64,000 nucleotides of DNA, from positions 29,199 through 93,198 of the forward strand of contig PGXZ01000002.1 of the NCBI GenBank assembly GCA_002839415.1, read 5' to 3'. The translations under genes were made by a program, and so were the position numbers. The notes under the pieces are model-generated. The model was not told where the DNA came from and searched no databases. It saw nothing but the letters and a program-made list of their open reading frames with translations. Positions 12,442-13,830 of this stretch are shown in pieces (position 1 is the stretch's first letter; each line of letters begins with the position of its first letter). Source of the DNA: Candidatus Saccharibacteria bacterium HGW-Saccharibacteria-1 (GTDB lineage Bacteria > Patescibacteriota > Saccharimonadia > Saccharimonadales > Saccharimonadaceae).

Positions 12442-12461
12442 AATAAATCGCTAGCGAAACA

Positions 12462-12497
12462 AAATACCACACAATATTGTATTGTGTGGTATTTTTA
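12462..12497 (+). terminator. Terminator after tsf
   Basis: AAATACCACACAATA pairs with TATTGTGTGGTATTT, followed by a T-rich stretch. Confidence 0.9.
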
Positions 12498-12571: not shown

Positions 12572-13798
12572 ATGTTTGTGGTTAGAAAAAACAAAGGATT
12601 TACGATCGTCGAACTAACGGCTGTAATCGTAGTAATTTCGATTTTAGTAGCTATTTCAATCGTATCTTATGTTGGTATTTCATCAAGGGCAATCCAGGCC
12701 TCGGTCCGCACTGATTTAGATAATGTAACAAAACAAATCAAGCAATATCAGGGCACGCTTGGAAATGGTAAGTATCCCGGCTCAGTAACGGATTGCCCTA
12801 ATCCTGCGAATGGCAATATGTGCTTAAAGCCTAGTGGATCAAATAAATTATCATACAAAGTTTATAATACGACCAAGCCAAAAGATTTTCGTATAACTGC
12901 GTATAACGAAGGTCAAGGAATTTATTATAGTAATAATGCTAGTGATATTAAATGTCCACTAAATTTCGTGATCGTACCGGGTAGTAGCTTATATAACACA
13001 AAAGATTTTTGTGTTATGAAGTATGAAGCAAAGCAGGCAAGTGCAACAGTGCCAGTGTCAAAAGCGGATAACTCACCTTGGGTCAATGTTGCTCAGGAGG
13101 CCGCAGGATTGAACAATGATGCAACTGAATATAGTAAAAACGTTGCAGATTGTAATAATTGCCATTTAATAAGCGAAGCGGAATGGCTAACTATTGCTCA
13201 TGATTTACTGTCTGTTTCGAGTAATTGGAGCAATGATGTTCCTGGTTACAACTATATATATCGAGGGAATAGCGCAATGGGAATGAGCTCTCCGATACCG
13301 GCTAGTAAAAAAGATAGCGAAGGATATTTTGGTTTAAATACTAGTCAAGGTGACGGAACATTGGTCGCTACGTATATAACGGGCGATTCGCAAAAACGAA
13401 CATTAACGTTGAGTAATGGCGAGGTTATTTGGGATATCGCTGGTAATATATCTGAATGGACGTCTAGTCAGGCTGATGAAGGTAGGCCAGGTAAGACCGG
13501 GATTGCTTGTAATGCAGCTGATGGCTCCACATTTGTGGAATGGATGACTGCTGATGTTATGGGTACTTTAAGCCCAAATCCTAGTATATTATTCATGACT
13601 GATATAACTAACTATAGTACACTAAATACGAGTCACGGCATAGGTAGCTTATGTAGTGATCCAATATCTGATTGGAGTCGTGCATTTGTACGTGGCGGAA
13701 GCTGGGTAAATGGTGGTATATCAGGAGTGTTGTCTTTATCGATTTATTTATCACCGGGCGTAGAAAATCAGTATGTTGGTTTTCGCGCCGCTCGTTAA
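12572..13798 (+). CDS. Type IV pseudopilin fused to an FGE/C-type-lectin-like domain
   Basis: 408 aa. The prepilin peptidase site and methylation segment are textbook: a short basic leader, then 'GFTIVELTAVIVVISILVAI' (G before F, Glu at +5). After a pilin stalk, residues of about 130-408 resemble the formylglycine-generating-enzyme/C-type-lectin fold: 'FVIVPGSSLYNTKDFCVMKYEA', 'LISEAEWLTIA', 'IWDIAGNISEWT' and the terminal 'VRGGSWVNGG ... YVGFRAAR'. Such C-termini are the usual variable region of diversity-generating-retroelement targets. No reverse transcriptase or template repeat was found in the window. It is probably a pilus-tip adhesin. The gene ends 46 nt before frr. Confidence 0.85.
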   Translation: MFVVRKNKGFTIVELTAVIVVISILVAISIVSYVGISSRAIQASVRTDLDNVTKQIKQYQGTLGNGKYPGSVTDCPNPANGNMCLKPSGSNKLSYKVYNTTKPKDFRITAYNEGQGIYYSNNASDIKCPLNFVIVPGSSLYNTKDFCVMKYEAKQASATVPVSKADNSPWVNVAQEAAGLNNDATEYSKNVADCNNCHLISEAEWLTIAHDLLSVSSNWSNDVPGYNYIYRGNSAMGMSSPIPASKKDSEGYFGLNTSQGDGTLVATYITGDSQKRTLTLSNGEVIWDIAGNISEWTSSQADEGRPGKTGIACNAADGSTFVEWMTADVMGTLSPNPSILFMTDITNYSTLNTSHGIGSLCSDPISDWSRAFVRGGSWVNGGISGVLSLSIYLSPGVENQYVGFRAAR

Positions 13799-13830
13799 TC
13801 ATGGTACTAGCGATTATTGCAGGTATTCGT

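Follow-up and report, generated by a model that had tools for sequence, protein, structure and literature searches.

How episymbiotic Saccharibacteria recognize and switch their bacterial hosts is an open question. It is touched by a gene in the 64,000 nt stretch of the genome of Candidatus Saccharibacteria bacterium HGW-Saccharibacteria-1 analyzed here (the window), for which a type IV prepilin N-terminus and a C-terminus in the style of the variable proteins of diversity-generating retroelements (DGRs) had been predicted. Is this gene a DGR target, and what would its product do? The open reading frame (12572..13798, + strand) codes for a protein of 408 aa. Our overall reading, which we consider quite probable, is that this protein is a minor modular pseudopilin with a non-catalytic lectin head, a former DGR target that was moved to the junction between tsf and frr and is now frozen.

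The prepilin signal and N-terminal helix (GFTIVELTAVIVV...; 12593..12757, + strand) matched Pfam N_methyl at residues 5-29 with 24.2 bits (cut-off 21.2), and NCBIfam IV_pilin_GFxxxE was also above its cut-off. In the AlphaFold2 model (pLDDT 82) the helix covered residues 12-62. The protein has the class III prepilin signal and the hydrophobic helix by which modular type IV pilins are defined. The head (residues 128-408; 12953..13795, + strand) was assigned to the FGE-type C-type lectin (CLec) domains, with conserved alignment columns from C128 to R405. Pfam FGE-sulfatase was marginal and below the cut-off for the protein itself (16.2 bits, E 0.0085) and above the cut-off for its homologs. The top PDB fold matches of the model were DGR variable proteins, namely, TaqVP (5vf4, E 5e-8), Mtd (1yu3, E 3e-4), and TvpA (2y3c, E 1e-3), with modest TM-scores of 0.25-0.40. 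The sequence of the protein also matched 5vf4 (E 4e-6), and although the TM-scores are modest, the resemblance in fold to solved CLec structures of the FGE subtype places the head in this group. Both predicted ends of the protein were therefore borne out, and the ending RGGSW...GFRAAR is as it had been quoted. The last part of the gene (13691..13795, + strand; RGGSWVNGGISGVLSLSIYLSPGVENQYVGFRAAR) is homologous to a DGR variable region (VR) in what appears to be a decayed form, and its 29-residue register is that of the templates in sister genomes.

Homologs of the window gene adjoin reverse transcriptases (RTs) in other Saccharibacteria genomes of the same genus. Cassettes with a pilin-FGE variable protein, Avd, template repeat (TR) and RT, and with adenine mismatches between VR and TR, were found in G015 (contig C40), G002 (C30 and C12), L109, L123 and L124. 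In the G015 cassette and in both G002 cassettes, the 3' end of the gene recurs beside the RT. In the coding part, all VR/TR mismatches of these three were located at template adenines (18/18 for G015, 17/17 for G002 C30, and 20/20 for G002 C12; hypergeometric test, p 1e-13 to 1e-16). Adenines also accounted for most mismatches of two remote genes: 15/16 for the gene on G002 C17 compared to the C30 template and 19/22 for the gene on G015 C37 compared to the C40 template. Judging from these sequences, remote pilin-FGE genes in the sister genomes are rewritten in trans. Two public Saccharibacteria genomes, L123 (49-20) and L124 (47-87), share 99.87% identity across 13 kb. In the pilin-FGE genes of this pair the identity was 99.9% for the sequence outside the VR and 88.9% within it, and the strains share the same template, with 12/12 and 10/11 VR mismatches on A. 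Strain-level hypervariation confined to the VR is thus observed in this family. The comparisons indicate that the pilin-FGE homologs of the window gene form a family of DGR variable proteins in the sister Saccharibacteria.

The DGR character that had been predicted holds for this family but not for the window gene, which has neither a template nor the codon signature. As had been stated, the window harbors neither an RT nor a template repeat: no RT was found there, and a scan of the window for a template-like pattern was empty. When the genome assembly was searched for a further copy of 13550-13810 (E<=10), nothing beyond short chance matches was returned, and a sister template used as query also gave no match in this genome. 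The same type of query found the VRs in the sister genomes at 68-87% identity. The last 35 residues of the window protein align to the sister templates without gaps (RGGSWVNGGISGVLSLSIYLSPGVENQYVGFRAAR compared to RGGNWNNGGNAGVLTLNLNNAPSNTNTNIGFRVSR). At the DNA level the identity was 47-52%, and the mismatches affected all bases and were not restricted to adenine. Adenine mutagenesis of AAY codons in a template can only produce NNY codons. In all eight active sister VRs tested, 10/10 of these codons were NNY. The window gene had NNY at 5/10 of the AAY-aligned codons, which corresponds to its own third-position background (0.55), as by chance; the other five end in A or G. Six other paralogs of the same length in this genome had NNY at 6-8 of 10 positions, and these genes pooled with the window gene (46/70) were not different from background (p 0.09). 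Amino-acid variability among these paralogs peaked at the template AAY sites (2.29 versus 1.44 bits, permutation p 0.003). We take this for a remnant of earlier DGR activity, although ordinary selection on a binding surface could give the same pattern. Since the window gene has no cognate template and no codon signature, we regard it as an orphan that was formerly a variable protein.

As a check it had been proposed to search the genome for an RT and for a template matching 13690-13798. The genome does have an RT, but the template of this RT fits another gene, and no template matched the segment. The sole RT is encoded at C7:14420-15103 and adjoins an Avd-like gene and a template, in the order variable protein, Avd-like protein, template, RT. 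The Avd-like protein matches NCBIfam DivGenRetAVD and Pfam bAvd. The variable protein of the cassette combines a prepilin with a FISUMP head that ends in GFSVRCLGN, and the template encodes a FISUMP-type ending, GFSVRCLEN. The assembly has a stretch of N in place of the VR of this protein; this is compatible with hypervariation but proves nothing. In an equivalent cassette of genome G007 the VR is intact, and 13/13 mismatches are on template adenines (p 2e-9). The resident template gave no match to the window gene, and action of the resident DGR on this gene was rejected, as its template matches a different pilin head. Of the features of an active DGR target, the window gene can thus claim an RT in its genome, of the FISUMP-target type, and none of template, adenine-restricted mismatches, and NNY codons. 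The cassette (G000 C7:14420-17320) adjoins genes for a TraG-like ATPase and, judged by sequence, an apparent restriction-modification methylase.

In 22 sister genomes, 53-94 nt separate tsf from frr. This gap has 1404 nt in the genome studied here and includes the window gene, which is an insertion at a junction that is empty in all 22. The insertion is bounded on its left by a terminator-like hairpin 3' of tsf (12461..12495, + strand), and a hairpin follows tsf at the same place in the sister gaps; the scan found one terminator-like site compared to 0.9 expected by shuffling. A promoter scan returned no + strand site for the window gene, and we therefore claim none. The contig of G026, the nearest relative, breaks off some 90 nt past tsf, within the N-terminus of a prepilin, so the insertion site may be common to both genomes. 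Upstream of rpsJ, at a second site, an FGE paralog is present in our genome and a gene ending like a FISUMP protein in G024.

Three other explanations have to be weighed against a frozen former target. If the gene were a currently active DGR target, its rewriting in trans would depend on the resident RT or on a template absent from the assembly. Such a template could have stayed unassembled, since the genome is a draft of 30 contigs (1.10 Mb, 98.9% complete), and the resident DGR, the action in trans on dispersed pilin genes in sister genomes, and the conserved register and A-site positions of the window gene are in line with this view. However, the FISUMP-type template is mismatched to the window gene, the kind of search that detected the sister VRs found no second copy of its 3' end, and codons ending in A or G at half of the AAY sites are impossible products of adenine mutagenesis of an AAY template. 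We consider an active target highly improbable. An even smaller chance is left for a surface-anchored formylglycine-generating or related oxidase enzyme, which we practically discount. The Pfam FGE-sulfatase similarity speaks for it, but residues 374-408, the segment equivalent to the catalytic site of human FGE, do not contain a single cysteine, and DGR variable proteins outrank PvdO and EgtB among the fold matches. PMC6328139 discusses where the human FGE triad lies with respect to a DGR VR. With the catalytic Cys absent from this segment, identity as an FGE enzyme was rejected.

The strongest of the three, still unlikely in our view, is that the gene was never a DGR target. Ordinary modular lectin-headed pilins would then have come first, and some members would have been captured by DGRs later. 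Grafted modules are common among pilins (PMC8179133), many relatives have fewer than 10/10 NNY codons, and the root of the FGE tree is unsettled. Against this, FGE homologs outside the Saccharibacteria branch, in Parcubacteria and Bdellovibrionota, have 10/10 NNY codons and several of them A-only templates, which makes descent from a DGR-linked ancestor the simpler interpretation; the variability at AAY sites also persists in the paralogs of our genome. In the tree of FGE heads these paralogs did not form one clade, support was weak, and the branch of the window gene was long (1.63). With such weak support, a tree-based proof that they descend from DGR-linked genes was dropped. Since the window gene is insecurely placed, the view that it was once variable rests on homology and register and not on a resolved node.

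For a former DGR target that is now frozen, we propose the following course of events. The prepilin helix would be cleaved by the prepilin peptidase and then inserted into the filament, most likely at the tip, and the FGE-type CLec head would bind a ligand without catalysis. In sister Saccharibacteria, RT and Avd copy an adenine-mutated template over the last 35 residues of the cassette gene and of remote copies. The window gene would be a copy that was moved from a DGR setting into the tsf-frr junction and then changed by ordinary point mutation in a lineage without RT and template of the FGE type, so its ligand surface would now be fixed. The order, variable first and frozen later, is what we infer. 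By analogy to modular pilins and DGR binders, the likeliest role of the protein is that of a non-enzymatic binding head on a type IV filament. Display on the pilus is suggested by the modular pilins of PMC8179133, and the protein may mediate adhesion to host bacteria. The DGRs of the relatives apparently vary what their pili grip.

TaqVP (5vf4), TvpA (2y3c), and Mtd share the fold, and their VR likewise lies at the C-terminus, spans about 35-45 residues, and has AAY-coded sites. Like them, the homologs in sister species have RT, Avd, and TR; unlike them, the window protein is anchored by a prepilin helix, and its gene has no template in the genome and no NNY signature. The modular type IV pilins described in PMC8179133 (e.g., PilB and PilC of S. 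sanguinis) likewise begin with a class III signal and an N-terminal helix, onto which a binding module is grafted. They include pilins of monoderms, and a Saccharibacteria protein is among the representative architectures. DGRs and the FGE head are not mentioned in the part of that paper considered here; in contrast to the pilins it describes, the head family studied here is hypermutated in relatives, and a single genome holds about 28 prepilin-like genes. According to Roux et al. 2021 (PMC8144416), cellular DGRs are enriched in CPR bacteria; the VR there is C-terminal and C-type-lectin-like, as it is in the pilin-FGE family. The CPR clade-2 targets of that study typically have no recognizable transmembrane or other conserved domains, whereas the targets described here clearly start as type IV prepilins. 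A plausible place on the cell is thereby offered for CPR DGR targets, which are often described as lacking recognizable domains. A type IV pilin with a hypermutated lectin head, like the one that differs between L123 and L124 almost solely in this segment, is a concrete candidate for a variable host-contact protein. Our check of titles and abstracts for literature joining DGRs to type IV pilins found none; it was incomplete and does not establish priority. In neisserial pilin antigenic variation, the major pilin is changed by gene conversion from silent cassettes. The two systems resemble each other in the variable surface of the pilus and in the many related copies that a genome contains. Unlike in the neisserial system, the relatives studied here reverse-transcribe a template, and the copies are complete genes.

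The protein search of the 1.1-Mb genome gave 28 places at E < 1e-3, which make up the prepilin-like genes counted above. Nine FGE proteins, including the window protein, have 35-43% overall identity. Eight of them match across the prepilin N-terminus; the ninth, on C9, carries another kind of membrane anchor. The heads of the remaining prepilin-like genes are FISUMP domains, DUF5122 beta-propeller repeats, or unknown. The genes inspected are mostly single and lie amid housekeeping genes. For pilus assembly, the genome encodes a prepilin peptidase (PF01478) and two PilC-like proteins. A FISUMP gene on C9 and a propeller gene on C30 have 207 nt of N-terminal DNA in common (90% identity) and different heads, which suggests that prepilin genes exchange heads or N-termini. 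Inspection by eye revealed no noncoding flanks common to the FGE paralogs as a signature of mobility. Apart from FISUMP copies and the DGR cassette, no genes were seen to share downstream DNA. The FISUMP copy on C6 (L038:1425-1898) and the variable protein gene of the cassette (L036:4203-5471) have about 150 nt in common across the stop codon and the downstream noncoding DNA (75%). The C6 gene looks as if it had been copied out of the cassette. More tentatively, and with doubts that outweigh our confidence, we envisage a repertoire of pilus adhesins that evolves at two speeds. The cassette would mutate one head, copies that left it for housekeeping junctions would be rewritten in trans or kept as a frozen archive, and N-terminal modules would recombine among the different heads. 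Frozen copies such as the window gene would reveal which heads were kept.

Several further loci were noted. A FISUMP prepilin gene upstream of rplC (L044:6490-7427) has an in-frame TAA just past the N-terminal helix and is a broken copy. In G017 (L203:1-1092), a serine-recombinase-like gene is located upstream of a prepilin-FGE variable protein and an RT, with no template found nearby; by this neighbor, DGR cassettes may travel with mobile elements. A sequence filed as viral, L260 (IMGVR_UViG_3300025582_000056), carries genes for a prepilin-FGE protein, an Avd-like protein, and an RT-like protein, arranged as in a DGR. Scaffold 3 of Microbacterium sp. ASV49 (L132; 63.7% GC) carries two adjacent prepilin-headed genes, one of which has an FGE head branching inside the Saccharibacteria set (support 100/99). 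Genes may have passed between Saccharibacteria and an actinobacterium here, or the assembly may be mixed.
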